Assembly (NCBI GenBank): GCA_017466325.1
Contig: JAFTUK010000020.1
Location: 1 to 44,978, forward strand
DNA length: 44,978 nt
Source of the DNA: Bacteroidaceae bacterium
GTDB taxonomy: Bacteria; Bacteroidota; Bacteroidia; Bacteroidales; Bacteroidaceae
Direction: 5' to 3'
In this document: in pieces, positions 15,899 through 44,759 of the stretch
How positions within the stretch are numbered: the stretch's first letter is position 1
Layout of the letters: every line of letters starts with the position of its first letter
The notes under the pieces: model-generated
Told to the model about the DNA's origin: nothing
The model's database searches: none
The model's input: only the letters and a program-made list of their open reading frames with translations
Made by a program: the position numbers and the translations under genes

Positions 15899-15984
15899 TC
15901 TGTTGTAGTATCAACAGGGAAGTGTTGATGTAGCAACACTGCGGTGTTGATGTATCAACAAACCAGTGTTGTCAGTACAACACT
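15899..15984. repeat. Four tandem palindromes at 22-bp period (array A)
   Basis: Four units, centred at 15908.5, 15930.5, 15952.5 and 15974.5, are exactly 22 bp apart. Unit 2 is AGTGTTGATGTAGCAACACT, with a 7-bp stem. Unit 4 is AGTGTTGTCAGTACAACACT (9-bp stem counting one more flanking pair). Units 1 and 3 have 6-bp stems built on TGTTG/CAACA. The two-base joins are GA, GC and CC. The array sits between the fucO stop and the fucA start. Confidence 0.85.
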
Positions 15985-16027
15985 GCCGTAACTATACTAT
16001 AGCATTATGCGCATCATTGCGGAATGG

Positions 16028-17182
16028 TTAGAGAACCTTCTCGTAAAGTCTCTGGATTATCTCTTTGTTGACGAAGCGTGGGTTGCCGGGCGTGCATACG
16101 TCTGCCGCTGCTGCCGTGGCAAGTTTGTCCAGGTCTTCGGCCTTGATGCCCAGTTCGGCAAGATGCTGGGGTATGCCCACACGGATGGACAATTGGCGAA
16201 CGGCCTCTACGGCTGCCTCTGCTGCCTCCTCATTGCTCATGCCTGCCGAGTAAACATTCATTGCCTTGGCAATCTGCACGTACTTGTCTATGGCGGCAGG
16301 CATGTTGAACTCCATCACCGTGGGCAGAAGCAGGGCATTTGCCACACCGTGGGGTATGTCGAAAATGGCGCCCAGAGGGTGTGCCATGCCGTGTACCACG
16401 CCAAGACCCACGTTGGAGAAGGCCATGCCGGCAATGTACTGTGCCACGGCCATGCCGTTGCGTGCCTCTGCGTTCTGTGGCTCGTTCACGGCAGTCTCCA
16501 GATAGCGTGCTATCATCTCTATGGCCTTCAGTTCGAACATGTCGCTCATTTCCCATGCACCCTTGGTGATGAGACCCTCGATGGCATGTGTAAGGGCATC
16601 CATACCGGTGGCTGCGGTCAGGCCGCGGGGTAGGGTGTACATCAGTTCGGCGTCCACAATGGCCATCACGGGGATGTCGTTGGGATCCACGCAAACCATC
16701 TTCTTCTCGTTCTCCTCGTCGGTGATGACGTAGTTGATGGTCACCTCGGCAGCCGTACCGGCTGTGGTGGGCAGTGCTATGATGGGCACGGATTTCTTCT
16801 TGGTGTCAGCCACGCCTTCCAACGAAACCACATCGGCAAACTCGGGGTTGTTGGTTATTATGCCCACGGCCTTGGCGGTATCCATGGAGGACCCTCCGCC
16901 GATGGCTATGATGAAGTCGGCGCCCGACTTGGCAAATGCCTCAACACCGGCCTTCACGTTGGACACGGTGGGGTTGGGCTTGATTTCGCTGAACACCTCG
17001 TATGGGATGCCTGCATTTTCCAGAACCTTCAGCACCTTGTCGGCAACGCCGAACTTGATCAGGTCCTTGTCTGTGGCAACGAATGCCTTCTTGTAGCCCA
17101 TGCGGGATATTTCCTGTGGGAGCACTTCGCGTGCACCGGGGCCGAAGTATGAAACTTCGTTCAGTATAAAGCGGTTTATCAT
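16028..17182 (-). CDS. fucO: Lactaldehyde reductase / 1,2-propanediol oxidoreductase
   Basis: A 384-residue iron-dependent (group III) alcohol dehydrogenase, matching FucO length. It reduces L-lactaldehyde to 1,2-propanediol with NADH, the fermentative end of fucose breakdown. The NAD-binding GGGSSMDTAKA spans 95-105. The four metal ligands expected in FucO are present: Asp195, His199, His264 and His278; His268 is also kept. It lies second in the operon, 84 bp after fucI. Confidence 0.92.
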   Translation of the reverse strand: MINRFILNEVSYFGPGAREVLPQEISRMGYKKAFVATDKDLIKFGVADKVLKVLENAGIPYEVFSEIKPNPTVSNVKAGVEAFAKSGADFIIAIGGGSSMDTAKAVGIITNNPEFADVVSLEGVADTKKKSVPIIALPTTAGTAAEVTINYVITDEENEKKMVCVDPNDIPVMAIVDAELMYTLPRGLTAATGMDALTHAIEGLITKGAWEMSDMFELKAIEMIARYLETAVNEPQNAEARNGMAVAQYIAGMAFSNVGLGVVHGMAHPLGAIFDIPHGVANALLLPTVMEFNMPAAIDKYVQIAKAMNVYSAGMSNEEAAEAAVEAVRQLSIRVGIPQHLAELGIKAEDLDKLATAAAADVCTPGNPRFVNKEIIQRLYEKVL

Positions 17183-17266
17183 TGTATTAAGATATATAAG
17201 GTAAATGTGGAAGTGTTAGAAAGGAAAAGTCTGTCTCTCCTTTCTAACCCTGTTGGATGTTATGCC

Positions 17267-19042
17267 TTACTTATAGATGGGACCGTAGTTCTGGCATGCT
17301 CTGTAGTCGGCACCCTCCTTGTCCATGCCGAATGCGTTCCATGCGGCGGGACGGAAGATGTTCTCCTCGGGCACATTGTGCATGCACACGGGAATGCGGA
17401 GCATTGAAGCCAGGGTGATGAGGTCGGCACCGATGTGTCCGTAACTGATGGCACCGTGGTTGGCACCCCAGTTGTTCATTACGGAATAAACGTCCTTGAA
17501 GGGAGCCTTTGTCTCGTCCAGACGGGGCACGAACCATGTTGTGGGCCATGTGGGGTCGGTACGCATGTTCAGCACCTCGTGTATCTCGGGATCCACGTCG
17601 GCTGTCCATCCCTCTGCAATCTGCAGGACGGGGCCAAGACCCTTGATGAGGTTCAGACGTGACATGGTAACGGGCATGCCGCCCTTTGACAGGAAGTTGG
17701 AAGAGAAACCACCGCCACGGAAGTAGTCGCGGTCGGCGGGCATCCAGTTGGTGTTCTTCAGGCAAGCCTCGGCATCGGCGTCGGTCATTTCCCAAGTGGG
17801 CTTCATGCAGGGTTCGCCTGCGGCATTGGTGCTGGCACCTGTAGCGTCCAGGGTGGTGGCGCCTGAGTTGATGAGGTGAATCATACCGCCGGAAGCCAGA
17901 CCTGTCAGTTCCTTGCCTGTTACGCGCTTCACGGCCTCGGGACTCCAGTATGTACGCACGTCGGAGAACATCTGTCCGCAACCGGTCAGCAACTTGCCGA
18001 AGAGCATTGCCACGGCGTTGCATGCATCGTTCTCGGTGGCAACTACGTATGCCTCGCGGATACCGTTCCAGTCGAATGTGCTGCAAAGCAGAGCCTCGGT
18101 GAAGTCACCGTTGGGCTTCCAGTCGGTCCACTGGCGCTGGCCCTGGAAACCTGCTGCTATGGCATTGTGGCCGATAGCCTCTTCCTTGAAGCCCATTTCG
18201 CGGAGCTTGGGGTTGCCGAGCATCAGGTCGCGCACGATGAGGGTCATCTTCACTACGAATTCCCAGTCGGCATCCTTGCCGGCACGGTCCTTCTGCTTCT
18301 CGGGACGGTTCTTGTCCCAACCCTCGTTCACCTTACAGTATTTCTCTGTCCATGCCATTGCCTTGGCATACTCCTCGTGGTCGTAGATACCCTCTTCCAT
18401 GCGGCGGAGGATTTCTGTCTCGTCCACGCTCTCGTTGCGCATGCCCAGATATTCCTGGAAGAAGTTCTGGTCAACGATACTGCCTGCGATACCCATGCAC
18501 TGGCTACCTACTGACAGGTAACTCTCGCCACGCATAGTTGCAACGGCCAGAGCGGCGCGTGCCCAGCGCAGAATCTTCTCTGCCACGTCCTCGGGGATGC
18601 TGTTGTCTGCCAGGTCCTGAACGTCATGGCCATAGATGCCGAATGCGGGCAGACCCTTCTGTGCATGGCCTGCCAGTACGGCTGCCAGATACACGGCGCC
18701 GGGACGTTCTGTACCGTTGAAACCCCATACTGCCTTGGGCCAGTGGGGATGCATGTCCATGGTCTCAGAACCGTAGCACCAGCAGGAAGTAACGGAAATG
18801 GTTGCACCCACGCCCTCGCGTTCGAACTTGGCCTGGCATGCTGCGGTCTCGGCCACACGGCCGATGGTGCCGTCTGCAATCACGCACTCCACGGGAGTAC
18901 CGTCGGCATGTTTCACGTTAGCGGAGATAAGTTCGGCAACAGCCTTTGCCAGATTCATTGTCTTTTCCTCAAGACTCTCTCGAACACCGCCCTGACGACC
19001 GTCGATAGTGGGGCGGATGCCAATTTTTGGATACTTGCTCAT
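17267..19042 (-). CDS. fucI: L-fucose isomerase
   Basis: A 591-residue protein, exactly the length of E. coli FucI, converting L-fucose to L-fuculose with Mn2+. The opening [20 protein letters not shown] is the family signature, and [13 protein letters not shown] and the C-terminal [20 protein letters not shown] are also typical. It is the first gene of the fuc operon (fucI-fucO-fucA-fucK-mutarotase-fucP). A candidate promoter lies 55 bases upstream. No fucR-type GntR regulator is adjacent. Confidence 0.97.
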
Positions 19043-19097
19043 AGTGTTAAGTTTGTTTGGGTTTGTATTCTTGTATGTTTTTATGCTATTCGCGTAA

Positions 19098-19105
19098 CAA
19101 ATTTA
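19098..19105 (-). promoter_or_regulatory. Candidate fuc operon promoter (-7 box)
   Basis: The minus strand reads TAAATTTG, an exact TAnnTTTG, 55 bases before the fucI ATG. No clear TTTG sits at -33, which would suit an activated or regulated promoter. Confidence 0.45.
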
Positions 19106-19273
19106 GGAAAAATAATTGAGAATCTTTCATAGGGTAGACTATTTTTCTGCAATCAAGTCAACCTTTATTGCAATTAAGACAGGCCAGAGCAGGTGGGTTC
19201 TTTTGGTTCGTAAACTTATAACTAAGGTAATGAGTGTTGGCGGGTGGGCATTTATTTGTCTCACAACATCGCC

Positions 19274-19337
19274 AGTACTCTCGTGAGGAAACTCCAGTAC
19301 TCTCGTGGGAGTACTGGAGTTTTCTCGTAGGGAAACT
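19274..19337. repeat. Three tandem 20-bp units at 22-bp period (array B)
   Basis: Units are AGTACTCTCGTGAGGAAACT (19274-19293), AGTACTCTCGTGGGAGTACT (19296-19315) and AGTTTTCTCGTAGGGAAACT (19318-19337), joined by CC and GG. Unit 2 is a hairpin that extends to a 9-bp stem with flanking bases, and unit 3 is a hairpin with one wobble. Unit 1 is a chimera: its left arm matches unit 2 and its right arm matches unit 3. It lies in the 363-bp gap between fucI and the radical SAM gene. The rest of that gap holds only the fuc promoter. Confidence 0.88.
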
Positions 19338-19405
19338 GAAACGGCCCCTGGCATACCACGCGCCTCCCCAGTATCCACTTTGCGTGAGATGAAAATGAGG
19401 GTAAT

Positions 19406-20095
19406 TCATCCTACGCCAAGGTCGGTGTTGTCTATGAGGACTTCGGCTTTGGAGGATTTCTGTAGGGTGGGGTAGACTTCGGCCAGGAACCATCGGAGCA
19501 TGTCGTCGTTGCGCCGGAGGGCGGTGGTGTTGGGGCAGAATACGTTTACGCTGTAATACTCGAAATGGCGTTCTGCCAAGTCTATGTCGCGGAGCAGGCG
19601 CTCCCTGGTGTCGCCGGGAGTGTCGGTGCAACAGAGCAGGCAGAGTCCTTGGAAGTGACGTGCTATATCCTCGGGCGTGACATGCGGTGGTATGCCTTTA
19701 TGCCAGTTGGCGCGCAGGGTTGGGGAGAAGGTTTCCACACCGCAACGGAACTTTACTACGGCAGGCTGGAACTGCCGTGCAAAGTCGGCAAGCCTGTGGC
19801 GGTACATATAGTGTGCTTCGAACCAGATGGTGTGTATACACTTGTCCTTTACCACTTTCCTTATCTCGGATATGGTTTCGCTGTCCAGTTCCATGGCAGA
19901 ACCAGAATTGATGATGTCCAGCACACCGAACTTGCCGGTGACACGCTTCAGCACCTCCTTGTTGACGTGGTATGGTGTGGGGGAAATGTCGCTACAATAA
20001 TCGCAGAAGGTACACTTGCCCCACTTGCAACTGGTACCTTGCAGGAGGAGGAACTCTCGTGGGAAGTTTCCCCGGATGACGGAATACCTGTTCAT
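19406..20095 (-). CDS. Radical SAM protein, possibly a QueL-like queuosine lyase
   Basis: A 229-residue protein with cysteines 23, 28, 31 and 34 in GTSCKWGKCTFCDYCSD, a CX4CX2C variant of the radical SAM cluster motif. A later GVETFSP segment is typical of SAM-barrel strands. The start at 20095 overlaps the stop of the queuosine-precursor transporter gene as ATGA, so the two are translationally coupled. In Clostridioides difficile, QueL is a radical SAM queuosine lyase that frees queuine and works with transported precursors. Context therefore suggests a queuine-salvage role. The longer frame to 20497 runs through the transporter gene in another frame and is not credible. Confidence 0.7.
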   Translation of the reverse strand: MNRYSVIRGNFPREFLLLQGTSCKWGKCTFCDYCSDISPTPYHVNKEVLKRVTGKFGVLDIINSGSAMELDSETISEIRKVVKDKCIHTIWFEAHYMYRHRLADFARQFQPAVVKFRCGVETFSPTLRANWHKGIPPHVTPEDIARHFQGLCLLCCTDTPGDTRERLLRDIDLAERHFEYYSVNVFCPNTTALRRNDDMLRWFLAEVYPTLQKSSKAEVLIDNTDLGVG

Positions 20096-20772
20096 GCGCC
20101 CCTTCTCCTGTAGTAATGGTTCAGACGGTTTACGGCCACATAGGCCAGCGGCGTGCCGGCAAAGACCTCTATTACGAGTTTCAACACGTATTGCAACAGC
20201 ATCATTTTCAAAAGGTCTTCGGTAGACACCGTGCCGTAGAAGGCAATGAGTACGAAGGGGACGGAGTCGAAGACATATCCCACCATGGAACTGCCTATTG
20301 TCCTGAGCCACATGTGCTTGCTGCGTGTCCACTCCTTCATTCGTTCCATGATGTAGGCGTTGGAGAGTTCTCCCAGCAGGAAGCCTGTGAGCGAACCTAT
20401 CACTATCCTGGGCACATAGGAGAAGATGTGGTTGTAGGCCTGTGCCGTCTCGTCCAGATAGTCGGGCGAAGGCATCCATATGCCTATGTTGGTGCACAAG
20501 ACCAGCACGATGTTACACATGAGACTCAGGTAGATTACGCGCTTGGAGATACGGTAGCCCCATATCTCGGTGAGCACGTCGCCCAGCATGTAGGCGAAGG
20601 GGAAGGTGATGGTTCCTGCGTCGAAGTAAAAAAAGCCGAATATACTGACTATCTTGACAGCCATCACGTTGGAAACGAGATAGAGTGTCACAAACAGTCC
20701 TGTGACTATCATCAGTGGTGTGTCAAAAAATACTCGGTTTTTTAAAGGGTTTTCCGATACCTTGTTATTCAT
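20092..20772 (-). CDS. yhhQ: Queuosine precursor transporter (YhhQ/VUT family)
   Basis: A 226-residue membrane protein with about six hydrophobic segments. The family traits are the early LYLVSNVMAVKIVSIFGF, the FDAGTITFPFAYMLGDVLTEIWGY block, and a C-terminal segment with VEVFAGTP. E. coli YhhQ imports preQ0 and preQ1 for tRNA queuosine. The start at 20772 is chosen because the upstream ATG at 20841 overlaps the promoter -7 box. It overlaps the radical SAM gene by 4 bases. Confidence 0.9.
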   Translation of the reverse strand: MNNKVSENPLKNRVFFDTPLMIVTGLFVTLYLVSNVMAVKIVSIFGFFYFDAGTITFPFAYMLGDVLTEIWGYRISKRVIYLSLMCNIVLVLCTNIGIWMPSPDYLDETAQAYNHIFSYVPRIVIGSLTGFLLGELSNAYIMERMKEWTRSKHMWLRTIGSSMVGYVFDSVPFVLIAFYGTVSTEDLLKMMLLQYVLKLVIEVFAGTPLAYVAVNRLNHYYRRRGA

Positions 20773-20826
20773 TCTTTCGTGTGTGTTGGGTGTATTGTTT
20801 ATGAGATTTCTATCGTTTTTGCGGTG

Positions 20827-20834
20827 CAAAGATA
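20827..20834 (-). promoter_or_regulatory. Promoter of the queuosine-precursor transporter operon
   Basis: The minus strand reads TATCTTTG, an exact TAnnTTTG, 55 bases before the ATG at 20772. It overlaps the codons that would follow an ATG at 20841 and so excludes that start. Confidence 0.55.
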
Positions 20835-20841
20835 CAAACAT

Positions 20842-21151
20842 TTATTGAAGTTTTGACGATGGTTAAACGATAAAATCCCTCAATGCCCGAATGTCACCGC
20901 TATCACATACATGTATTAACAGGGCATCTGGCTAATAAAGTCTGTCAAACGATTGTGCAAAGACCTGATTTATGCAATCTGGCATATCTGTTACCGGATG
21001 TCAGGCAGGGGAAATGTAGTCCTCACATAAGAAAAGTGTCATTATCTACACTAAAAGGCGGGAAAATCCAATAAAAATAGTTATCTTTACAGCCTAATAA
21101 TGACGTTTTGTACTGAATAACCTGTTTGTCGGTACCAAAACGAAAGTATAT
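20842..21151. other. Intergenic 310 bp, no gene seen
   Basis: This stretch separates the divergent transporter and omega-amidase genes. I see no conserved frame, tRNA or strong hairpin. A weak -7-like TATCTTTA at 21082-21089 might serve the omega-amidase gene. Confidence 0.5.
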
Positions 21152-21922
21152 ATGACCATGAAGATAAACCTGATACAGACAGATATCGTATGGGCAGAAC
21201 CGGAGGCGAACCGCCAGCATGCAGAGAGCATCATGCGCTCGCAGGACAAGGCCGACCTTTATATCCTGCCGGAGATGTTCTCTACGGGCTTTGCCACGCA
21301 ACCCGAGGGAATAGCAGAAGACTTTAATGACGGTTCGTGCGCTTCGCTTGAGTGGATGAAGCAGATGGCGGCAGAACTGGATGCCGCCGTAGCGGGAAGT
21401 GTTGCCGTAAGGGAGGAGGACGGCCGCTATTACAACCGTTTCTGCTTCGTGCGCCCAGATGGAGATTGCACCTTCTACGACAAGCACCATCTTTTCACCT
21501 ATGGCGGCGAGCACCATCGTTATACGGCAGGAAAGGAACGTGTGGTGGCTGAGTTCCGTGGTGTGCGCTTCCTCCTGCAGATATGCTACGACCTGCGATT
21601 CCCCGTATTTGCACGCAACAAGGCCGACGAACCCTATGATGCGATTATATATGTGGCAAGTTGGCCCACTCCCCGAGTGGAGGCATGGCTGGCGCTGCTG
21701 AAGGCCAGAGCCATAGAGAACCAGTGCTATGTCTGTGCCGTGAACCGTGTGGGCACAGATCCTGCGTGCCACTATTCCGGCGGCACACTGATGATAGACC
21801 CTTATGGCAAGGTGGTGGCACAATGCCCCATGGATGAAGAAGCATACGTGTCGGCAGAAACTGACCTGGAGGCACTTTGTGCCTTCCGCGAGAAATTCCC
21901 GGTACTGAAGGATGCGGACTAA
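21152..21922 (+). CDS. Omega-amidase, nitrilase superfamily (YafV type)
   Basis: A 256-residue carbon-nitrogen hydrolase. The Glu-Lys-Cys triad is visible: Glu41 in LPEMFSTGF, Lys111 in DKHHLF and Cys145 in QICYDLRFP. PEMFSTGF and CYDLRFPVFARN are the YafV/Nit2 signature. It hydrolyses 2-oxoglutaramate or 2-oxosuccinamate left by glutamine or asparagine transaminases. Starts at 21152 and 21158 are both possible. The aminotransferase operon downstream could generate such amides, but no direct link is seen. Confidence 0.9.
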   Translation: MTMKINLIQTDIVWAEPEANRQHAESIMRSQDKADLYILPEMFSTGFATQPEGIAEDFNDGSCASLEWMKQMAAELDAAVAGSVAVREEDGRYYNRFCFVRPDGDCTFYDKHHLFTYGGEHHRYTAGKERVVAEFRGVRFLLQICYDLRFPVFARNKADEPYDAIIYVASWPTPRVEAWLALLKARAIENQCYVCAVNRVGTDPACHYSGGTLMIDPYGKVVAQCPMDEEAYVSAETDLEALCAFREKFPVLKDAD

Positions 21923-22120
21923 GGAAACGGAAAACTGGAAACGGAAATCTGCGAGTAAGCGAGAGCAGAGAAAATTTATTTACTCTGCCGAGCGGAAGCA
22001 GATTCGACGAAGTCAAAACGGAAATCGGAAAACGGAAAACTCCAATTATTCCGAAAAGGACTAAGGAAACTGAACCATAGAATTATAGTGGCGGACACGG
22101 CATGCCGTGTCCCTACAAGA
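21923..22120. repeat. Composite intergenic repeat with long hairpin and perfect palindrome
   Basis: The segment after the omega-amidase gene has purine-rich copies of CGGAAAAC/CGGAAATC. It has a nested hairpin (ATCTGC near 21947 pairing with GCAGAT near 21999; GCAGAG pairing with CTCTGC). It then has the perfect 20-bp palindrome GGACACGGCATGCCGTGTCC at 22093-22112. No gene is credible here. It resembles dispersed intergenic repeats of Bacteroidales. Confidence 0.6.
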
Positions 22121-22153
22121 GAGAAAAGACCGCGAAGCGGGATTAAAACGGAA

Positions 22154-22234
22154 AACTCCGAGAACGCTGAATAATCTAAGTAATCAGAATAATCAGAATA
22201 CTCCGACAACTCCGAATACTCCGATTAATACAAT
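22154..22234. repeat. Nine degenerate 9-bp tandem repeats
   Basis: Nine consecutive 9-mers: AACTCCGAG, AACGCTGAA, TAATCTAAG, TAATCAGAA, TAATCAGAA, TACTCCGAC, AACTCCGAA, TACTCCGAT, TAATACAAT. They mix two subtypes, xACTCCGAx and TAATCxGAA. The array ends 54 bases before the iorA start. A shorter 9-bp array lies at 3742-3786. Confidence 0.8.
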
Positions 22235-22288
22235 AACACCAAGCCCCTCTGCAAAGGAGAAGAGGGCAGACAAAATAGATAATCAACT

Positions 22289-23881
22289 ATGAAGAAACTA
22301 CTACTTGGAGACGAGGCTATAGCACTGGGTGCCATACATGCCGGTTTGGGAGGCGTGTATGCCTATCCCGGCACTCCCTCCACTGAGATAACGGAATATA
22401 TACAGGCAGATGCACTTGCACGCGAACGTGGGGTGCATAGCCGTTGGTGTACAAACGAGAAGACCGCCATGGAGGCCGCCCTGGGCATGTCCTATGCAGG
22501 AAAGCGCGCCTTGGTGTGCATGAAGCACGTGGGAATGAACGTGGCCGCCGATGCATTCGTGAACTCTGCCATAACGGGTGTGCACGGAGGCTTGGTGGTG
22601 GTGGCGGCCGACGACCCCTCTATGCACTCCAGCCAGAACGAGCAGGACAGCCGTTTCTATGCCTCCTTTGCCATGGTGCCTGCCATGGAGCCAGGCAACC
22701 AGCAGGAGGCCTACGACATGATGCGCGCGGCATTTGAGTTGTCGGAACAGTTGCGCGAACCCGTAGTGCTCCGCATAGTCACACGCCTGGCGCATAGCCG
22801 TGCCGCGGTGGAGGTGAGCGAACCCATGGAGGTGCAGGACAGAGGGATATGCCAGGAACGGTGGGTCTTGTTGCCCGGCATTGCCAGGGGGCGCTATGCC
22901 GCCCTTCTGGAGAAGCAGGACGATATGCTGGCGTCTTCCGAGACCTCTATATATAATAAGGTGGAAAAAGGCGAAGGTTCCCTGGGCATAATAGCATGCG
23001 GCATTGCCTACAACTATGTGAAGGAGGCATTGGGCGACAAGGCTAATGTCCTGAAGGTAAGCCAGTATCCCTTGCCCGAATCCAAGATATGCCAACTGGC
23101 AAAGGAGAACGATGCCATAATGGTGGTGGAGGACGGACAACCCGTGGTGGAACAGCAGGTGAAGGCACTGCTTGGTGCCGATTACCCGGTGAAGGGACGT
23201 CTGACGGGCGACTTGCCACGAGCCGGCGAACTGACCCCCGACAATGTGGCCAAGGCCCTTGGCGTGGAAGGCAAGGAAACCATGCAACATTCCACTATAG
23301 TTGCACCACGTCCCCCTCAACTGTGCCAAGGCTGCGGTCACCGCGATGTCTATACGGCACTGAACCAGGTGCTTGCCACATATCCCGACTACAGAGTGTT
23401 TGGCGACATAGGCTGCTATACCCTCGGTGCATTGCCTCCGTTCAAGGCACTGGCCAGTTGTGTGGACATGGGCGCTTCCATCACCATGGCAAAGGGTGCT
23501 GCCGATGCAGGTTTCCATCCGTCGGTGGCCATAATCGGCGACTCCACATTCACGCATAGCGGCATGACGGGTCTGCTGGATGCCGTAAACGACGGGAGCA
23601 ACATCACCGTGGTAATCTCCGACAATCTCACTACGGGCATGACCGGCGGACAGGAGTCGGCTGGAACAAGCAAGTATGAGGCCATCTGCACCGCCCTCGG
23701 CGTGGAGCCTGAGCATGTGCGAGTGGTAGTCCCCCTGCCAAAGAACATGGAGGAGATAACGCGCATACTGAAAGAGGAAATAGACTATCCGGGCGTGTCC
23801 GTTATCATTCCGCGCAGGGAATGTATACAGACGGCGGCACGCAAGGCTCGTGAAGCGCGTAAGTTACGAGAGAACAACTGA
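22289..23881 (+). CDS. iorA: Indolepyruvate:ferredoxin oxidoreductase alpha subunit, no ferredoxin domain
   Basis: A 530-residue thiamine-diphosphate enzyme subunit. It has an N-terminal pyrimidine-binding domain (GVYAYPGTPSTEITEY), a middle domain, and a C-terminal pyrophosphate-binding domain with QGCGHRD, GDIGCYTLG and the GDSTFTHSG...N TPP motif. With IorB it interconverts aryl-pyruvates (indole-, phenyl-, hydroxyphenylpyruvate) and aryl-acetyl-CoA plus CO2, using ferredoxin. Archaeal IorA proteins (about 600+ residues) end with a two-cluster ferredoxin domain; here the protein stops before any such Cys motif. iorB follows 29 bases later. Confidence 0.9.
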   Translation: MKKLLLGDEAIALGAIHAGLGGVYAYPGTPSTEITEYIQADALARERGVHSRWCTNEKTAMEAALGMSYAGKRALVCMKHVGMNVAADAFVNSAITGVHGGLVVVAADDPSMHSSQNEQDSRFYASFAMVPAMEPGNQQEAYDMMRAAFELSEQLREPVVLRIVTRLAHSRAAVEVSEPMEVQDRGICQERWVLLPGIARGRYAALLEKQDDMLASSETSIYNKVEKGEGSLGIIACGIAYNYVKEALGDKANVLKVSQYPLPESKICQLAKENDAIMVVEDGQPVVEQQVKALLGADYPVKGRLTGDLPRAGELTPDNVAKALGVEGKETMQHSTIVAPRPPQLCQGCGHRDVYTALNQVLATYPDYRVFGDIGCYTLGALPPFKALASCVDMGASITMAKGAADAGFHPSVAIIGDSTFTHSGMTGLLDAVNDGSNITVVISDNLTTGMTGGQESAGTSKYEAICTALGVEPEHVRVVVPLPKNMEEITRILKEEIDYPGVSVIIPRRECIQTAARKAREARKLRENN

Positions 23882-36742: not shown

Positions 36743-36782
36743 CGGTAATTTGTAAGGCAAAAGGTTCTTGACCATAAAACAG

Positions 36783-36813
36783 GGCTGACTTCCAGTTTGG
36801 CAAGTCAGCCTTT
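36783..36813 (+). terminator. Rubrerythrin terminator
   Basis: GGCTGACTT (36783-36791) pairs perfectly with AAGTCAGCC (36802-36810) and is followed by TTTATTAT. It lies 40 bases after the rubrerythrin stop. Confidence 0.75.
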
Positions 36814-36883
36814 ATTATGCTTGTGCAATAGACAAAGTGATGTGAAATCCAACAGATGTCCTCTTGTGCCCCTCGCCGAGCCG

Positions 36884-36955
36884 TCGGTGGCGGTAAATTT
36901 ACAGCCCTCGGCGATAAATTTCACCGCCAGTGGCGGCTTGTTTTACCGCCACCGA
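36884..36955. repeat. Three GC-rich palindromic units at about 22-bp period (array D)
   Basis: Units with ideal form GGCGGTAAATTTACCGCC are at 36889-36906, 36910-36928 and 36932-36950, centred at 36897.5, 36919 and 36941. The outer 14 bases TCGGTGGCGGTAAA (36884-36897) and TTTACCGCCACCGA (36942-36955) are an exact inverted repeat. It fills most of the gap between the rubrerythrin terminator and mce. The 83-codon frame across it has no gene character. Confidence 0.75.
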
Positions 36956-37080
36956 GGATTGGAAAGGTGTCTCGTGGGAATAAAGTCAGAACCCTTAGAA
37001 AATGACAAGGGAGAGGAACCGAGTCCTCCCCCTTGTATAATACGCTAAAATGAGGCGGTATTATTAATCTTTTCAAAATT

Positions 37081-37485
37081 TTATTCCTCGCACAACTCGG
37101 TCAGGATGCCGCAGGTGCTCTTGGGATGCAGGAAAGCAATCTTCAGGCCATCGGCACCACAACGGGGAGCCTTGTCGATAAGGCGGATGCCATTTGCTTC
37201 GCATTGGGCCAAAGCCTCGGTAACGCCATCCTCAACCTTGAAGGCAACATGGTGGATGCCACGGCCGCCATTGTCCAGGAACTTCTGGATGGTGCTCTCG
37301 GGGCATGTGGGCTCCAACAGTTCAATCTTTACTTCGCCTACCTTCAGGAATGCGGTCTTCACCTTCTGGTCTTCTACAACCTCCTCCTTATAGAACTCCA
37401 AACCGAGAACGTCGGTGTAGTAGGGGAGAACTTCTGCAATGTTCTGGACAGCGATGCCCAGGTGTTCGATTCTTGAAATCTTCAT
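37081..37485 (-). CDS. mce: Methylmalonyl-CoA epimerase
   Basis: A 134-residue vicinal-oxygen-chelate protein. It has RIEHLGIAVQNI (metal His near residue 7), GIHHVAFKVED (second His) and a C-terminal HPKSTCGILTELCE ending in Glu. These are the metal-binding positions of MCE. It interconverts the R and S forms of methylmalonyl-CoA in the succinate-propionate route common in Bacteroidales. The start at 37485 is preferred to the frame to 37575, which overlaps panD. It follows panD by 22 bases, so it probably shares the panCD transcript. Confidence 0.92.
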   Translation of the reverse strand: MKISRIEHLGIAVQNIAEVLPYYTDVLGLEFYKEEVVEDQKVKTAFLKVGEVKIELLEPTCPESTIQKFLDNGGRGIHHVAFKVEDGVTEALAQCEANGIRLIDKAPRCGADGLKIAFLHPKSTCGILTELCEE

Positions 37486-37507
37486 AATGAATATAGATTT
37501 AAAAGTG

Positions 37508-37861
37508 TTATTGTTTCTTGGGTAATGTGTTGTTCTCGGGGAACGCCACTTGAGGGGTGAAGTCCATGGCCTCATCCGGAGTCATGCGTGCATAGGCCAT
37601 GATGATGATGGTATCGCCCACCTGCACCTTGCGTGCGGCGGCACCGTTGAGGCATACGCATCCGCTTCCGCGTTCACCGGAAATGGTATATGTGTCAAAG
37701 CGTTCTCCGTTGTTGTTGTCTACGATAAACACTCTCTCTCCCGGTATGATGCCCACGGCATCCATCAGGTCCCTGTCCAGGGTGATGCTGCCCATGTAGT
37801 TCAGGTTTGCTTCCGTTACCTGTACACAGTGCAGTTTGCTTTTGAGTACTTCTATTGTCAT
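37508..37861 (-). CDS. panD: Aspartate 1-decarboxylase proenzyme
   Basis: A 117-residue pyruvoyl enzyme making beta-alanine for pantothenate. The self-cleavage site Gly24-Ser25 is in NYMGSITLD, and [10 protein letters not shown] and [12 protein letters not shown] are typical. Length and cleavage position match E. coli PanD (126). It overlaps panC by 4 bases (ATGA). Confidence 0.96.
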
Positions 37862-38700
37862 TTGTATCTGATGTGGTCAATCAAACGTATAGGTGTCTTG
37901 CCGCAATATACAGTAATACAACCGACTACTGAGGCGGAATCAGACCAGTCTTCTATGTCGGCCAGTGTGTCTCCGTCCACTATGCTGTAGTATTCCACCT
38001 CTAAGCCGGGAATCTCGTTGATGTTGCAGACAACCCATTCCCGTGTCTCGCTAACGGTAAGTCCAAGGCTTTTGCTTTCCTTTAGTATGCGGTAGATGTT
38101 GGGGGCAATTGCCTTCTCGTCGGGAGCCAGCAAGGTGTTTCTGCTGCTCATAGCCAGTCCGTCTGCTTCGCGTATTACGGGGCATGGGATGATGTCCACA
38201 CGGAACTTCAAATCCTCCACCATGCGGCGTATGACGGCTATCTGCTGGTAGTCCTTCTCTCCGAAATATGCCCTGTCCGGGTCGGTAATCATGAACAGTT
38301 TGCTTACAATCTGGCATACGCCATTGAAGTGTCCGGGACGGCGTGCCCCCTCCATTACAGAGTCGGTGGGGGGATATGAGAACCGGCGGGTGTCCGGTTC
38401 AGGGTATATCTCGCCTACGCTGGGGGCAAAGGCAATTTGCGCTCCGCACTCCTCAAGTATTGCGCAATCGCTTTCCAGTGTCCTTGGATAGCGCTCCAAG
38501 TCCTTGGGGTCGTTGAATTGCGTGGGGTTCAAAAATATGCTTACTACCGTAATGTCGTTCTCTGAAACGCTTTTGCGAACCAGCGAGGCATGCCCCTCGT
38601 GCAAGGCCCCCATGGTGGGGACAAGCCCGATTGACATTCCTTTTGCACGCTCGGACACAAGAATGTCCTGCAACTGTGCTATCGTGTTAATTACCTGCAT
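37858..38700 (-). CDS. panC: Pantothenate synthetase
   Basis: A 280-residue ligase joining pantoate and beta-alanine with [17 protein letters not shown] holds the HIGH-like nucleotide motif. [25 protein letters not shown] and the KMSKS-like MSSRNTLL are present. It leads a panC-panD-mce transcript and diverges from the GT5-like gene over a 192-bp promoter region. Confidence 0.96.
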
Positions 38701-38740
38701 TGCAATGGTTGAAAAATAACTGTTTGTTCAAAAATTCATG

Positions 38741-38748
38741 CAAAGGTA
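38741..38748 (-). promoter_or_regulatory. panC promoter (-7 box)
   Basis: The minus strand reads TACCTTTG, an exact TAnnTTTG, 40 bases before the panC ATG. Confidence 0.5.
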
Positions 38749-38854
38749 AAATATTTATAGGTATCTAAAGAAAGAAATCGTCCTAAAAAAGCAAAAAAGT
38801 GCTAAATTGAATAAAACAGATGGCAGTCAGGACATGAATGTCGCCGTTTTTTTG

Positions 38855-38862
38855 TAACTTTG
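38855..38862 (+). promoter_or_regulatory. Promoter (-7 box) of the GT5-like gene
   Basis: TAACTTTG, an exact TAnnTTTG, 30 bases before the ATG at 38893. With the panC box it makes a divergent promoter pair. Confidence 0.5.
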
Positions 38863-38892
38863 CACACAAGATAATATGTATATTGCGCATAT

Positions 38893-39750
38893 ATGGAGAA
38901 AGCAAAGAAGATACTTTTCCTGACGCAGGAGATAGAGCCGTACGTCTGTGAAACACCCTTGAGTTCAATAAGCCGTTCGCTTATTCCCGCCGTTCAGGAG
39001 TCTGGCCGTGAGGTCCGCACTTTTACTCCCAAGTGGGGGCAGATCAATGAACGCCGCAATCAGTTGCACGAGGTCATACGCCTTTCCGGCATGAATCTGA
39101 TAATAGACGATACCGACCATCAACTGATTATCAAGGTGGCAAGTATCAATGCGGCACGTATACAGGTATATTTTATCGACAATGACGATTTCATGAAGAA
39201 TCGTCTTATGTTGGCGGACGACAAGGGAAAGTTGTATAAGGACAATGTGGATAGAGTAATGTTCTTCGCACGTGGTTCGCTTGAGACGGTCAAGAAACTT
39301 CGTTGGGTTCCGGAAATAGTGCATTGTCAGGGAATAATGAGTTCTTTGGCTCCATATCTGTTGAAACTGGCATATTATGACGAACCGAGTTTTCGCGAGT
39401 CAAAGATAATCTTTACACCGTCAACGGATATTCCGGAGTCTCCGCTTCCCAAGAATTTTGATGGCATATTGTCTTTCCGTGAGGCTAACAGGACAGCCTT
39501 GTCCACACTTGGCAGTCTGGCCAACCTGGAAGACTTGAACCGCATCGGTATGTTCATGAGCGACGGGGTTGTTCTTAACGAACCCAACGAATACTACCAG
39601 CGTATGGCAAGGGAGATGGGAAAGCCAGTGGCAATACTGGACCCGGAGAATCTCGTGGCCGCTCCATTGGAGTTGTATGATACCTTGTGGGACGAGGTTG
39701 TCAGGAACAGGCCCAAGGAGGAAGACGACGACGAAGGTTTCCTGTTTTAG
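38893..39750 (+). CDS. Glycogen/starch synthase N-domain-like protein, probably not catalytic
   Basis: A 285-residue protein matching only the N-terminal half of GT5 glycogen synthases (KKILFLTQEIEPYVCETPL). Full enzymes are about 480 residues with a second Rossmann domain; it is absent. The ADP-glucose-binding KxGGL motif is replaced by CETPLSS. The form is conserved in Bacteroidales beside panC and the DUF4270 gene, which argues against a broken gene. A regulatory or scaffold role is inferred. Confidence 0.82.
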   Translation: MEKAKKILFLTQEIEPYVCETPLSSISRSLIPAVQESGREVRTFTPKWGQINERRNQLHEVIRLSGMNLIIDDTDHQLIIKVASINAARIQVYFIDNDDFMKNRLMLADDKGKLYKDNVDRVMFFARGSLETVKKLRWVPEIVHCQGIMSSLAPYLLKLAYYDEPSFRESKIIFTPSTDIPESPLPKNFDGILSFREANRTALSTLGSLANLEDLNRIGMFMSDGVVLNEPNEYYQRMAREMGKPVAILDPENLVAAPLELYDTLWDEVVRNRPKEEDDDEGFLF

Positions 39751-39818
39751 GTAGGTTCTGTCATTCAGCATTGAGGTGTTTGATGTTGGTCGTGTTTTGA
39801 TTAGAAAGGACTTTAGAA

Positions 39819-41375
39819 GTGAAGAAACTTAATATATTGGACCGTATAGGTTCATTGGTAGTGGCTTCGGCCATGGCATTTTTAGTCTCCTGTACAGAGA
39901 ATACTGGGAACATAGGCATTCCTCCTGCAAATGAAACATTGGAGAGTAGTGTGGCGGTTTGGGATGTCTACACAAAGTCGGTGAAACTGGATAGCATAAA
40001 GGCACATTCAGTTTCCTCTTATTTGGGGTCGATTTACGACCCGGAAACCAACGGACGTCTTACCGGCAATTTCATCACCCAGTTTGCCGTGATGGAGGGG
40101 TTCAGGTACTTTCCTCCGATAGACTCCATTACATCAAGGGATTCGGAAGGAAGCCCCCGTTGCGACAGCGTCATGTTGCAATTGAATTTTGACACTTATT
40201 ACGGCGATGTCAATACCCCGTTGAAGTTGGCGGTATATCCGTTGGACATGAACAATCCGTTGAGCGAAGACAGCGTATATTACACCAACACGGATTTGAG
40301 AAAGTACATACGTCCCGGATACGAGGACAAGCCCATAGCAACAAAGGTATTCACCGCGTGGGACAGAATACACGGTTCTGACCCCTCTAACGCCACGTCA
40401 GGCAGTTATCCCAGTATACGTATTCCTTTGCCATTGTCTGAAGGCAATCAGATAATGGACAAGTACTGGGAGTACCTGGAAGACAACAAGGGACTTTCAG
40501 AAGAGGAGCATGTAAACCGCAACTTTGACGATTCATATCATTTCATCAGAAACGTCCATCCCGGTTACTATGCTGAAATAATAAACGGTGAGGGTGTGAT
40601 GGTGCGTGTCTTTGTGGATGCCCTGTATCTGATATACAATGCACGTGTACTGAATGACAGCATTGTGGAGGAGGTGCCTTCATATAGCGTGTTTGCAGGT
40701 ACTCCAGAGGTTATCCAGAGTTGCCAGTTCTCGGAATCCGATGTTGCCGAACTGGTGGAAGATGAATCATGCACATGGCTTAAGACACCTACGGGAATAT
40801 GTACGGAGGTAACACTGCCCATTGATGATATCTTCTCAGGAAGCCACAAGAACGACAGTATCAGCCGTGTGGAACTGATGTTCAACAGATACAATAAGGA
40901 GCAGACAGGAAACCAATTCGGTATTCCCCAGAATCTTCTGCTTGTCCGCAAGAGCGAGGCCAACAGTTTCTTCATCCAGAACAAGACTCCGGATGAGGTG
41001 ACGTCTTACCTTGCAGCCTTCCAAAAGGCCTACAATACGTACACGTTCAACAACATCAGCCAGATGGCAACCTTCATGTACAAGGATCGCGAGAATGCCG
41101 TTATGGCCTACATCAAGGATGTACTGAAGGTGGATAACCCTACGGAGGCACAGATTGAGGAGGAGACACACGAATGGACCAAGCGCAATCCTGATTGGAA
41201 CAAGTGTTGCCTTATACCTGTAGAGATTACCACCAATACCGCTTCCGGTTCCATAACAAGCGTAAGCCACGACCTCTCCCTTACGAGCGCCCGTCTGGTA
41301 AAGGGAACCAAGGATGAACCTATCCGCATACAGGTATACTATACCCGTGTAGCCTCCGCCTCCAACAATGAGTAG
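39819..41375 (+). CDS. DUF4270 outer-membrane lipoprotein
   Basis: A 518-residue protein with a lipobox at Cys25 (FLVSCTEN) after a signal peptide, so lipid-anchored. It matches DUF4270 of Bacteroidetes, a large extracellular beta-rich family of unknown role. Translation starts at GTG (39819), giving MKKLN; no nearby ATG fits the signal peptide. Its last 8 bases overlap the helicase gene. Confidence 0.82.
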   Translation: MKKLNILDRIGSLVVASAMAFLVSCTENTGNIGIPPANETLESSVAVWDVYTKSVKLDSIKAHSVSSYLGSIYDPETNGRLTGNFITQFAVMEGFRYFPPIDSITSRDSEGSPRCDSVMLQLNFDTYYGDVNTPLKLAVYPLDMNNPLSEDSVYYTNTDLRKYIRPGYEDKPIATKVFTAWDRIHGSDPSNATSGSYPSIRIPLPLSEGNQIMDKYWEYLEDNKGLSEEEHVNRNFDDSYHFIRNVHPGYYAEIINGEGVMVRVFVDALYLIYNARVLNDSIVEEVPSYSVFAGTPEVIQSCQFSESDVAELVEDESCTWLKTPTGICTEVTLPIDDIFSGSHKNDSISRVELMFNRYNKEQTGNQFGIPQNLLLVRKSEANSFFIQNKTPDEVTSYLAAFQKAYNTYTFNNISQMATFMYKDRENAVMAYIKDVLKVDNPTEAQIEEETHEWTKRNPDWNKCCLIPVEITTNTASGSITSVSHDLSLTSARLVKGTKDEPIRIQVYYTRVASASNNE

Positions 41376-44300
41376 CGAGTGGTTTCAGGAGATGGGGATA
41401 CTCTATTCCCTGTTGCCGGACTATGAAACCGCTTATGCAAGATTAGGCAGGATATTTTTCGAGTTGCTTGACGATGCAACTTCCGAGTCGGATGTCTTGT
41501 TGGCAGGTTGCTTTGCCAAGACGGATTATCTGCTGAAGCAGAAATCAGCAAAACCACAACTCAGACGTATGGTCAATGGCATGCGTCTGAGGTTGACCAA
41601 GGATAAAGGAACACAGAGTGCCGGGAATTTCATGTATGATTTTCAGGCTCTGTGTCTTTTTATTGCCCTGCTGCTGGGCAAGGAGGTCCCGGCGGAACTT
41701 GAAGAACTGTTTCCCAAGGAGCGCCAATCGGGCGGTATATATGCCGTAGATGCTGACTACATCCGTGTTATTCTCCATGATTGGGACGATGAGTTCCTGC
41801 ATTGTACCTCCGAATCGGGAGAAGAGGACATACGGATAAGGTATTCGGGTGAGGGGCAGTTGTATGGACATGACAACTCCTATCTCTCGGAATTGCTCTG
41901 CAAGGGCATGATGCTCAACGTTGTCCGTCCCAGAAAGTCGGAGGACGGAGTCCTGCTGCCTGAACTTCTTGTCCTGGAACCGGACTTTCTTGTAGATGTC
42001 TCCACCATAGCATCGTGCTTCGAGTCTTATGCCGAATCCCCTGTCGTTTCTTTGTTGAGGAGGTTGGAACCGCCGGCAATAACAGAACCCATCCTTATGG
42101 GTAATATGGCATCCGAACTTCTGGATACGGTCATTCACGACAGAGGTAGTGTAGCAGGGCGCTCGTCCGAGATGATGAAGGACCTCTATGTGGAAGCGGC
42201 CAAGAGGTTTTTCCAGAGCAATGCCGTTGGTGTGATGTATGCCCATCCCGACAAATCCTTCCATTCCCTCGCATGGCAACAGATGCAGAACATACACAAG
42301 GCATTGCATGCCACCTTGCCCGAAGCGGTAGACAGGTATGACGAGACCAATGTTGTGGTGGAACCGACATTCTTCTCCGAAATGCTGGGCCTGCAGGGGC
42401 GTATGGATATGCTTCAGACGGATATGAGGGTGCTGGTGGAGCAGAAGGCAGGCAAGGCGGCTTATGTCTATGGCGACGCTGATGCCGACACCCCAAAATA
42501 CAAGGAGCAACACTACATCCAGATGCTCCTGTATATGGCCATTATAAGGTATAATTTCCGTCAACTTTATGAGACTAACAACCGCGAACTGCATGCATTC
42601 CTTCTTTATAGCAAGTACATGCATCCGCTTGTCGGACTGGGGTTTGCACCTGAACTTTTGCACAGGGCCATTGTCCTGCGCAACAGGTATGTGGCACAGG
42701 AGAGGGACCTCTGCCAGGGAGGCATTTCCAAACTGATGTCGTCCACCGCCGAGAGTCTGAACCTGAACGAAGTCCGTGGCAGGCTATGGGAGCAGTATCA
42801 GCGTCCGCGCATTGAAGGCCTGCTTTGCCGTTTCCGCCTTTCATCGGAACTGGAGCGTGCATATTTCCAGCGCTTCTATCGTTTTGTCGCCCTGGAACAC
42901 AGACTCTCCAAGATAGGAAACCAGACAAAGGAGTGTTCCGGATTTGCCAGTGCGTGGCTGTCTTCGTTGGATGAAAAGCAGCAATACGGCAACATTCTTC
43001 TTGGCCTTGCCATAAACGCCGGCCGTTTCCCTGATACGGGACATATATCACACCTGGTGTTGGAATATAGCGGCGAGTCGGGCAATTTCAGACAGGGGGA
43101 CATAGTAGTGTTGTATTCCTATCCGGAAGACCATGCCCCCGACATAAGACGGACGATGGTGTTCAGGGCAGTGATAAGCAACGTTTCGCCCTCTGAAATA
43201 ACCTTGAAACTCAGGAACACGCAGAAGGATGCTTCCGTCTTTCATTGCCCGACGGGCAGTGCATGGTGCCTGGAGCATGACTTCATGGAGAGTTCCTATA
43301 GCGGTCTTTACAAAGGTCTGTATTCCTTTCTGTGTGCTCCCCAGGAGCGCAAGGATCTTGTGCTGATGCAGCGCTCTCCCCGTGTCAATCCTGATGTGTC
43401 CTTGCGTGGTGATTATGGCGGCTTCAACGGTTTGCAGAAAAGGATCAAGGCCTCCAGAGACCTTTTCCTGGTTATCGGTCCGCCGGGAACGGGAAAGACT
43501 TCCTTTGGCATGCTCCATACCTTGCAGGAAGAACTGCTGGAGGGTGACACCAGGGTGCTGGTAGTGTCGTATACAAACCGTTCGGTGGACGAGATATGCA
43601 GCAAACTGTATCCGGAAATAGACTTTATCCGCCTTGGTGGCAATGTGTCGTCCGTCGAAACCTATTCCGAACGCTATCTCGGCAGCATCGTTGCCGAATG
43701 CAAGACCTCGGCTGAGTTGAGGGATAGGGTAGCGGCCGCACGTGTCGTTGTAGGGACAACATCGTCGGCCATGTCGCATCTGCCCCTCCTGTCCATGGAC
43801 CGCTATTCACTCTGCATCATAGATGAGGCCAGCCAGATTCTGGAACCTCATCTTCTGCCTCTGCTCTCCCTTTGTTGTGCCGACGGCACTCCCTGCATCT
43901 CAAGGTTCGTGATGATAGGAGACCACAAACAACTGCCTGCCGTGGTGCAGCAACGCAGCAGGGAGTCCCGTGTTGATGACCCATCCCTGAACGCAATCGG
44001 ACTGTCTGATTGCCGTAACTCCATGTTCGAGAGGCTTCTGACCAGATACCGCCACAATCCGGAAGTCTGCTACATGCTCACCCGTCAGGGACGCATGCAC
44101 AGGGATATCGCACATTTTCCCAATATTGCTTTCTATGGAGGCAAGTTGCAGGAGGTACCCTTGGAACACCAGCTTGCCGCTTCGGCACATTCCAGAGTTC
44201 GTTTTATTGATGTCCAGCCACAGGACTATTCCCAGACGGACAAGGTGAATCCCTCCGAGGCATTCGTCATTGCCGATGAACTCATGCTTATATGGCAACG

Positions 44301-44673
44301 CCATCAGCATGAATTCAAACCCGAGGAGACCGTGGGTGTCATTGTGCCTTATCGCAACCAGATATCTGCCATACGCACAGTACTGGCCGAGAGGCTCGAC
44401 ACTCCTGACCACCCGCTCCTGCACATCACCATAGACACGGTGGAACGATACCAGGGCAGCCAGCGCAATTACATAATTTACGGCTTCACCGTTCAAAAGG
44501 TCTATCAGTTGCGTTTCCTCACAGAAACCACATTCCAGGAAGACGGCATGACGATAGACCGCAAACTGAATGTTGCCATGACACGTGCCAGGGAATACCT
44601 CATCCTCGTAGGCAACAGCCCCCTGCTCTCGCGCGTACCTTTATATAAAAGGTTGCTGCATTATTGCGGTTAG
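41368..44673 (+). CDS. Dna2-like PD-(D/E)XK nuclease and superfamily 1 helicase fusion
   Basis: A 1101-residue protein. The N-terminal 230 residues are unassigned. A Cas4/RecB-like nuclease follows: Asp347 in GRMDML and Glu358-Gln-Lys360 in VEQKAGKA fit the PD-(D/E)XK active site. The second half is a UPF1/Dna2-type helicase with Walker A GPPGTGKTS (704-712), Walker B IIDEAS (817-822), GDHKQLPAVV, VGVIVPYRNQ and NVAMTRAREYLILVG. This order is that of Dna2, which trims flaps and resects ends. It overlaps the DUF4270 gene by 8 bases. Conserved pairing with DUF4270 is a Bacteroidales habit, but no functional tie is known to me. Confidence 0.85.
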   Translation: MSSEWFQEMGILYSLLPDYETAYARLGRIFFELLDDATSESDVLLAGCFAKTDYLLKQKSAKPQLRRMVNGMRLRLTKDKGTQSAGNFMYDFQALCLFIALLLGKEVPAELEELFPKERQSGGIYAVDADYIRVILHDWDDEFLHCTSESGEEDIRIRYSGEGQLYGHDNSYLSELLCKGMMLNVVRPRKSEDGVLLPELLVLEPDFLVDVSTIASCFESYAESPVVSLLRRLEPPAITEPILMGNMASELLDTVIHDRGSVAGRSSEMMKDLYVEAAKRFFQSNAVGVMYAHPDKSFHSLAWQQMQNIHKALHATLPEAVDRYDETNVVVEPTFFSEMLGLQGRMDMLQTDMRVLVEQKAGKAAYVYGDADADTPKYKEQHYIQMLLYMAIIRYNFRQLYETNNRELHAFLLYSKYMHPLVGLGFAPELLHRAIVLRNRYVAQERDLCQGGISKLMSSTAESLNLNEVRGRLWEQYQRPRIEGLLCRFRLSSELERAYFQRFYRFVALEHRLSKIGNQTKECSGFASAWLSSLDEKQQYGNILLGLAINAGRFPDTGHISHLVLEYSGESGNFRQGDIVVLYSYPEDHAPDIRRTMVFRAVISNVSPSEITLKLRNTQKDASVFHCPTGSAWCLEHDFMESSYSGLYKGLYSFLCAPQERKDLVLMQRSPRVNPDVSLRGDYGGFNGLQKRIKASRDLFLVIGPPGTGKTSFGMLHTLQEELLEGDTRVLVVSYTNRSVDEICSKLYPEIDFIRLGGNVSSVETYSERYLGSIVAECKTSAELRDRVAAARVVVGTTSSAMSHLPLLSMDRYSLCIIDEASQILEPHLLPLLSLCCADGTPCISRFVMIGDHKQLPAVVQQRSRESRVDDPSLNAIGLSDCRNSMFERLLTRYRHNPEVCYMLTRQGRMHRDIAHFPNIAFYGGKLQEVPLEHQLAASAHSRVRFIDVQPQDYSQTDKVNPSEAFVIADELMLIWQRHQHEFKPEETVGVIVPYRNQISAIRTVLAERLDTPDHPLLHITIDTVERYQGSQRNYIIYGFTVQKVYQLRFLTETTFQEDGMTIDRKLNVAMTRAREYLILVGNSPLLSRVPLYKRLLHYCG

Positions 44674-44695
44674 CAGCACACTACACGCCGTGCCC

Positions 44696-44759
44696 AGTCC
44701 TCTCGTGAGAGTACTGGAGTTTTCTTGCGAGAGTATTGGAGTTTCCTCGTGGGGAAACT
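44696..44759. repeat. Three tandem 20-bp units at 22-bp period (array C)
   Basis: Units are AGTCCTCTCGTGAGAGTACT (44696-44715), AGTTTTCTTGCGAGAGTATT (44718-44737) and AGTTTCCTCGTGGGGAAACT (44740-44759), each joined by GG. Unit 3 is a perfect 7-bp hairpin, unit 1 has one mismatch, and unit 2 is a chimera of the two arm types. It is the same family as 19274-19337, sharing the centre TCGTG. It lies 23 bases after the helicase stop. Confidence 0.88.

Follow-up and report, generated by a model that had tools for sequence, protein, structure and literature searches.

Intergenic arrays of short dyads on a 22-bp lattice in a Bacteroidaceae genome: possible cores of dispersed non-coding repeat elements

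The window considered here, the whole 44,978-nucleotide stretch of contig JAFTUK010000020.1, is part of the draft genome of a Bacteroidaceae bacterium (GCA_017466325.1; 2.59 Mb in 56 contigs, 88% complete), and carries three intergenic arrays of 20-bp dyads, each with an exact 22-bp step. In what follows, G000 designates this genome, other G numbers other genomes, and L numbers fetched loci. The arrays follow a plan common to different sequence families, namely, a 7-bp arm, a 6-bp centre, a second 7-bp arm, and a 2-bp linker. Array 1 (15899..15984), of the AGTGTTG family, lies in the gap upstream of the minus-strand open reading frame (ORF) 15150-15797 and consists of four dyads starting at 15899, 15921, 15943, and 15965, with 6, 7, 5, and 7 of 7 arm positions paired, respectively. 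It is enclosed by two flanking arms, TATATGTGTGTTACGGC at 15860..15876 and GCCGTAACTATACTATAG at 15985..16002 (both plus strand), which pair imperfectly in the predicted fold. Array 2 (19274..19337), of the AGTNYYC family, comprises three units (19274-19293, 19296-19315, and 19318-19337; 4, 7, and 6 of 7 pairs) joined by the linkers CC and GG, and forms as a whole a near-palindrome with the middle unit as its axis. To its right, the minus-strand ORF 19406-20497 looks real, and the plus-strand gene given by a simple caller was judged wrong. Array 4 (44696..44759), also of the AGTNYYC family, follows the plus-strand ORF 41368-44673, starting 22 bp past the stop codon, and its three units (44696-44715, 44718-44737, and 44740-44759; 6, 4, and 7 of 7 pairs) are joined by GG in both places.

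An initial, sequence-only reading of the window had claimed four arrays of this kind. Those at 15899, 19274, and 44696 stand, but the proposed array 3, at 36884..36955, is a single long hairpin and not a member. Tried at unit lengths of 14-24 and periods of 20-24, it reaches at best 14 of 21 pairs, a score equalled by several ordinary places of the window, and its predicted fold is one hairpin with an outer stem of 14 bp (formed by 36884-36897 and 36942-36955). At L034:340-372, the same genome has a shorter hairpin with nearly the same arms, and within the portion of the genome that was scanned, hairpin elements with arms like CGGTGGCGGTAAA / TTTACCGCCACCG occur in two copies, one with a much longer interior. 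In other respects, the right part of the window (36.75-44.98 kb) has no match at E<=1e-20 in the draft genome G093 among the best 40 of 75 candidates scored, and may represent an island; the 1101-residue product of ORF 41368-44673, which lies inside it, looks helicase-like by eye.

With regard to frequency, the window and 40 stretches of G000 (828,039 bases) were scanned, without regard to sequence, for sets of three units whose 7-bp arms are complementary, at unit lengths of 14-28 and periods of 16-33 (the period never shorter than the unit), and an array was counted at 17 or more of 21 pairs over three-unit windows. For unit 20 and period 22, 16 arrays were obtained, against a mean of 0.13 (maximum 1) in fifteen second-order Markov simulations and none in the mirror-repeat control. 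The arrays thus occur far more often than in simulated DNA. Twenty of the stretches came from contigs already known to carry arrays, which calls for caution as to density; the remaining 20 (383 kb) alone hold 6 arrays at the same threshold. The peak at unit 20 and period 22 is sharp, most other cells of the grid holding 0-3 loci. Cells with the same centre and trimmed or extended units (unit/period 22/22, 18/22, and 16/22) hold 9, 7, and 6, odd units at period 23 reach up to 6 and form a second class, and a 1.5-period echo (20/33) gives 5.

The proposed intergenic location is borne out, since all 16 scan arrays are centred outside called genes (coding fraction 0.83), as are all 22 arrays listed by hand, the gene calls coming from a simple script. 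Twenty arrays are flanked by genes on both sides, and lie in convergent (10), tandem (6), and divergent (4) gaps, against a background of 52 convergent gaps among the 236 of at least 100 bp. This placement bears on a host function of the arrays, in which a dimeric nucleoid or regulatory protein would bind the three or four dyads and organise the chromosome or insulate convergent genes. We consider this explanation rather unlikely. It draws support from the convergent share, from the fixed 22-bp lattice with inverted half-sites, and from a unit number that is mostly three (by strict count, 9 of 13 arrays in G000 and 13 of 15 in G163, the Bacteroidaceae assembly RGIG4467, where a looser count gives 12 arrays of three and 3 of four units), but the positions show no operator-like upstream bias (with a crude gene caller). 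The reading of the arrays as operators was dropped as a lead, since half of the placeable ones lie in convergent gaps.

A comparison with a close relative, G093, was informative as to the history of the arrays. This genome is 96-98% identical to G000 around several arrays and 87-95% identical around others. Six arrays can be aligned on both flanks; in G093, four of these gaps are filled, and two are empty (15899 in the window, and L033:5901). The other arrays are uninformative, the alignment stopping on one side or missing. At the first empty site, a 190-bp segment containing array 1 (15831..16020) is absent from G093, and nearly so from G094, with slightly different edges; no clean target-site duplication is seen, the edges are unclean, and the gap varies among other relatives. 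At the second, a 102-bp insert lies between the imperfect 9-bp direct repeats TTGCGGATA / TTACGGATA (8 of 9 matching). At the L051 site, G093 and G094 hold a 23-bp-type array in the same gap. Whole units are gained or lost at orthologous sites: L067 is found with 4, 6, and 3 units, L222 and L256 differ by one 22-bp unit, and the G093 orthologue of L054 has one extra 23-bp unit. Furthermore, near-identical copies occur at unrelated loci (L250/L252, 77 bp at 96%; L051/L064, 81 bp at 92.6%; L241/L250, 91 bp at 91%). In the closest paralogous pairs, the shared stretch is the array plus 2-18 bp beyond each side, and the 150-bp flanks are otherwise unalignable. Many array gaps lie at synteny breaks with G093, but synteny is low across all of the 20-kb span of the window tested, and the arrays were not retained as a cause of rearrangements.

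Several sequence families share this geometry. In G000, the arm families are AGTGTTG, AGTNYYC (AGTTTCC, AGTACTC, AGTTCTC, and others), AGTACYG, and, at period 23, AGTCCTC. The 20/22 plan recurs in some congeners with unrelated arms, namely, GTTAAGT in G005, G008, and G012, CAACTTC in G012, and AATCTTC in one array of G085, the evidence in other genomes being thinner and mostly at the 16-pair threshold. G008 and G012 have five arrays each, four of them in one recognisable family, against off-period means of 0.77 (maximum 4) and 0.36 (maximum 2), respectively. The G005 stretches were partly picked for AGTACTC matches. Counts in G004 (2), G138 (1), and G134 (1, at 16 pairs) are not above the off-period counts of these genomes, and no arrays were found in G016, in four stretches from two genomes that belong to other families of the order, or in five congeners (one locus each). 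Of 139 genomes of the genus, 4 contain the exact unit AGTGTTG-N6-CAACACT, G000 being one of them. Among twelve genomes searched, the two-unit pattern AGTNNYC-N6-GRNNACT occurs at 14 places in G000, 3 in G093, and 3 in G094, and six genomes have none. A two-unit AGTNYYC pattern was found in 45 stretches of a named genome collection, mostly ruminant-gut assemblies of Bacteroidaceae and Prevotellaceae, as well as in Caecibacteroides pullorum AN421, Parabacteroides faecis JCM 18682, P. goldsteinii, and Bacteroides sp. GM023, so that laboratory testing is possible in named Parabacteroides and Bacteroides strains. At the Parabacteroides and Bacteroides loci, the arrays reach five or eight units (L245 and L255 in Parabacteroides). 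Phages and plasmids were set aside as carriers, viral contigs having no match to the two-unit pattern and array 2 no plasmid match. A host function is difficult to reconcile with this patchy presence (empty sites in a close relative, no two-unit match in half of the twelve genomes), with family-specific sequences that differ between congeners, or with arrays of five and eight units in Parabacteroides.

The arrays are therefore copied and scattered, and some are lacking in a close relative, which the sequence-only reading had missed and which points first to a repeat element. For this reason, we place first the reading that they are the cores of dispersed, non-coding repeat elements of about 80-130 bp with a dyad lattice, and give it roughly an even chance; such elements would probably be non-autonomous. 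Part of the same evidence also fits with plain minisatellites, in which a palindrome is duplicated by slippage and corrected by template switching, with neither a trans-acting factor nor a function. Exact unit duplications at orthologous loci are in line with this, as are true double changes of both arms in two orthologous units (the last of L067, A:T to G:C; the first in G088/G094, T:A to C:G) and two inverted 6-bp centres (ccgtat versus acacgg in the last unit of L067; acgtga versus tcacgt in L218 of RGIG4467 compared with L221 and L225, whose flanks are co-oriented), which hairpin-templated correction or inversion would account for. However, near-identical arrays at unrelated loci and the single 20/22 geometry of several unrelated sequence families are left unexplained, and one-sided arm changes also occur (the first unit of L067 in G093, and L062), so that we regard minisatellites without further factors as unlikely. 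A wider claim of spacer flips in RGIG4467 was given up, as the orientation of units with identical arms depends on the stored strand, and only the two flank-registered cases were kept; one spacer from a mismatched unit of this genome is found in both orientations (ACACGT/ACGTGT).

Several observations weigh against the repeat-element reading. A single site shows a repeat resembling a target duplication, and this repeat is imperfect (8/9). The borders are blurred: in pairs of lower identity, the similarity extends up to 28-43 bp past one side of the array, and in six RGIG4467 copies, the shared sequence is by eye 25-45 bp, partly with similar adjoining gene ends. Four orthologous arrays are kept in G093, and two gaps hold arrays in genomes that are 76-79% identical there, a retention which implies that some arrays are long-lived and which would also suit a host function. 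Close copies still differ, which recent copy-and-paste would not predict without fast unit turnover, and the R-Y rule at the dyad centre (see below) is followed by only 29 of 45 RGIG4467 units. In addition, neither of the two transposase families searched shows a link with the arrays. G000 (88% complete) lacks matches to Y1_Tnp (PF01797), as do the array-bearing G005 and G008, G093 lying outside this search, and DDE_Tnp_1 (PF01609) has no match in the array-bearing G093, G005, and G088 (drafts, 69-89% complete). The latter family has three matches in G000 and four in RGIG4467, and the four DDE_Tnp_1 loci examined (L281, L282, L285, and L286) hold no AGT...ACT array. Both RAYT and DDE_Tnp_1 transposases were rejected as movers, neither being consistently present. 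A tyrosine recombinase was considered as well, since the 6-bp centre resembles a crossover region of the kind used by these enzymes; PF00589 is present in all eight genomes tested, including G004, which has no two-unit match, and is hence uninformative.

With regard to the arms, the initial claim that the two change together is true between families and in the two orthologous units described above, but not for mismatched units within the window arrays (AGTACTC with GGAAACT at 19274, and AGTTTTC with GAGTATT at 44718), nor for RGIG4467. When the G000 families are pooled, arm positions 4 and 7 pair far above shuffles, and positions 5 and 6 not clearly so (p 0.08 and 0.28). If G-U is allowed, 109 of 128 positions are paired in the AGTNYYC-type units of G000 versus 91.7 in shuffles, 113 of 140 versus 109.3 in near relatives, which is not clearly above, and 130 of 180 versus 145.3 in RGIG4467, which is below. 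Identical arms are found in 13 of 45 RGIG4467 units versus 19.7 in shuffles, and C-A mismatches are about as frequent as G-U in the arms. The RGIG4467 arms are mainly AGTACTC (A) and AGTTTTC (T), with CC linking T' to A and GG linking A' to T (15 of each in fetched loci). All 15 arrays at these loci have exactly one A-A'-type unit, all 15 begin after CC, and 13 end before GG. A strict single-core rule was discarded, array C38:28451 having two A-A' units and a GC linker, and 18 of 19 arrays fit. The stable feature is therefore the lattice of inverted half-sites, and not strict complementarity. At the dyad centre, R-Y is found in 37 of 37 G000 units and in 35 of 35 units of near relatives (AGT...ACT type only), within a 6-bp centre that is mostly YYRYRR, these counts being inflated by common descent; the 72 of 72 speak for a host-function protein. 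The suggestion of dimers binding dyads along one face of the DNA agrees with the two-fold symmetry that is kept, which recurs on a fixed 22-bp lattice with unrelated sequences in some congeners, but no protein or footprint was found for it.

The alternative offered in the same reading, a chain of RNA hairpins, would act at mRNA 3' ends through stability, pausing, or two-way termination, and proves weak; we judge it very unlikely. The predicted folds of arrays 1, 2, and 4 of the window are indeed far more stable than those of shuffles (z -4.0 to -6.7), convergent gaps hold half of the placeable arrays, the G000 AGTNYYC arms pair above shuffles with G-U, and the two orthologous double changes count in favour of hairpin units. 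However, these folds consist for the most part of nested hairpins that span adjacent units, with one unit each in arrays 1 and 4 folding alone, which, together with the below-shuffle pairing in RGIG4467, does not agree with independent unit hairpins kept by compensatory change. Permuting the order and orientation of the units had no average effect, the mean fraction of rearrangements at least as stable being 0.52, 0.48, 0.61, and 0.64 in four groups (in RGIG4467, 8 of 15 arrays are at <=0.21 and 7 of 15 at >=0.65), and selection on the RNA fold was rejected on this ground. The deficit of pairing in RGIG4467, the lack of a clear excess in near relatives, and the C-A mismatches argue in the same direction, as does the Rfam search, which at gathering scores found only tRNAs in the window and eight array loci.

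Coming back to the repeat-element reading, we can propose that arrays would be copied into the gaps between genes, in many cases convergent ones, and that whole 22-bp units would then be gained or lost. Movement or copying would require a putative protein, acting in trans, that recognises the dyads (7-bp arms around a 6-bp centre), including a centre of the pattern YYR|YRR in this genome. With the 22-bp step, successive dimers would sit on the same side of the helix, and the sequence families would be recognised by distinct members of the putative protein family. Template switching within the palindrome, at replication, would be the simplest source of co-change of both arms and of flips of the centre. 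More tentatively, a single diversified family of dimeric proteins that bind or recombine DNA might shape and spread many unrelated sequences of one bacterial genus on a 7-6-7+2 = 22-bp lattice of about three units, reading geometry and dyad centre more than sequence; this would represent an undescribed array-forming mobile repeat, a proposal that we see as possible but rather unlikely. Features of the repeat-element, host-binding, and minisatellite readings can hold together. The unusual point is that many sequences share a single geometry. Sequence is the usual basis on which small repeats between genes are defined, and here the layout outlives the sequence, so that sequence-based repeat finders would miss the kinship between families. 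If a protein reads the lattice, the arrays would illustrate a new way to spread non-coding DNA in an abundant gut order; if none does, they would preserve natural traces of template switching and of slippage of units.

Among known systems, the arrays are nearest in kind to BrickBuilt and to repetitive extragenic palindromic (REP) and miniature inverted-repeat transposable elements (MITEs), and by the tests made are a member of neither. BrickBuilt comes from Porphyromonas gingivalis, which belongs, like the present bacterium, to the order Bacteroidales. In the accessible part of its description, it is a MITE or minisatellite, intergenic and dispersed, with 19 elements in ATCC 33277, each made of 1 to 22.8 direct repeats of the 23-nt unit AGAYCATARTATCCTCTCRTRTG with 0-11% mismatches, and with ends like those of the insertion sequence IS5 (PMC4596501). 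On the basis of this part, the arrays resemble it in being intergenic and dispersed tandem repeats of short units without spacer, of variable number, with predicted long stem-loops and no internal transposase; its period of 23 nt is that of the minor AGTCCTC family, and its TARTA centre is, by our reading, similar. The arrays differ in being mostly three or four diverse 22-bp dyads without IS5-like ends. The unit AGAYCATARTATCCTCTCRTRTG matches none of 292 fetched loci exactly (mismatches disallowed), and in the present arrays 22 is the main period. Terminal inverted repeats of the IS5 type (GAGACCWTTGCA) match 9 of the 292 loci; in six of these, which represent copies or orthologues of the L067 locus, the match lies about 0.45 kb from the array and away from its ends. 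The sequence-only reading had not recognised the arrays as a named family; no name was found for them here either, but this near relative in kind has been described.

REP elements and bacterial interspersed mosaic elements (BIMEs) with RAYT (TnpA-REP), including the atypical Bacteroidetes subclass 2.6, are likewise, in the parts of the literature consulted, short extragenic clustered palindromes in many copies and genome-specific families (PMC3733652, PMC6006769). In these parts, dimers are mostly 20-100 bp apart, some 1-5 bp, whereas the present lattice is contiguous, this comparison concerning structures outside subclass 2.6. In each of three groups, the ten most frequent 4-mers next to the arrays vary (TGCC, TTCC, AGTC, TTTC, CATG, and others) and reveal no fixed GTAG/CGTC foot, CGTC appearing once in each of two groups and GTAG not being among the ten, and a cognate RAYT (Y1 transposase) is absent from G000, G005, and G008. 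As with MITEs, occupied and empty sites both occur (two of the six arrays with alignable flanks being empty in G093). Neisserial dRS3 is a short inverted repeat with a variable centre, like the arrays, and pneumococcal BOX, in the manner of array 1, encloses inner repeats of varying number between outer arms. Compared by description only, dRS3 (named in PMC3733652) and BOX differ in that the accessible parts of their descriptions contain no 22-bp dyad arrays. No account of 22-bp palindrome arrays in Bacteroidales was found in the titles and abstract openings of the open-licence literature, among the matches listed.

Other features were noticed at the array loci. In RGIG4467, three genes seem by eye to finish with TTC TAA TGAG right before the array (L218:964, L221:1219, and L225:5783-5804), as if the end of the element provided the stop codon. 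Another tandem family with a period near 22 bp, centred on AGGCCT (GTAAAGGCCTCAACTTGTCCGG), is present at L151:7640-7760 in G093 and L047:10570-10700 in G000, and an L047 flank query containing it matches six places in G093. A 23-bp-period family, GTCACCC-t-CGGTGAC, is shared by G000 and G093 (L057:4841 and L151:7869). Lastly, about 290-190 bp to the left of the array at 18374 in L062 lies a dispersed repeat of about 90 bp that is unrelated to the arrays and has about 20 full or partial matches in G093.

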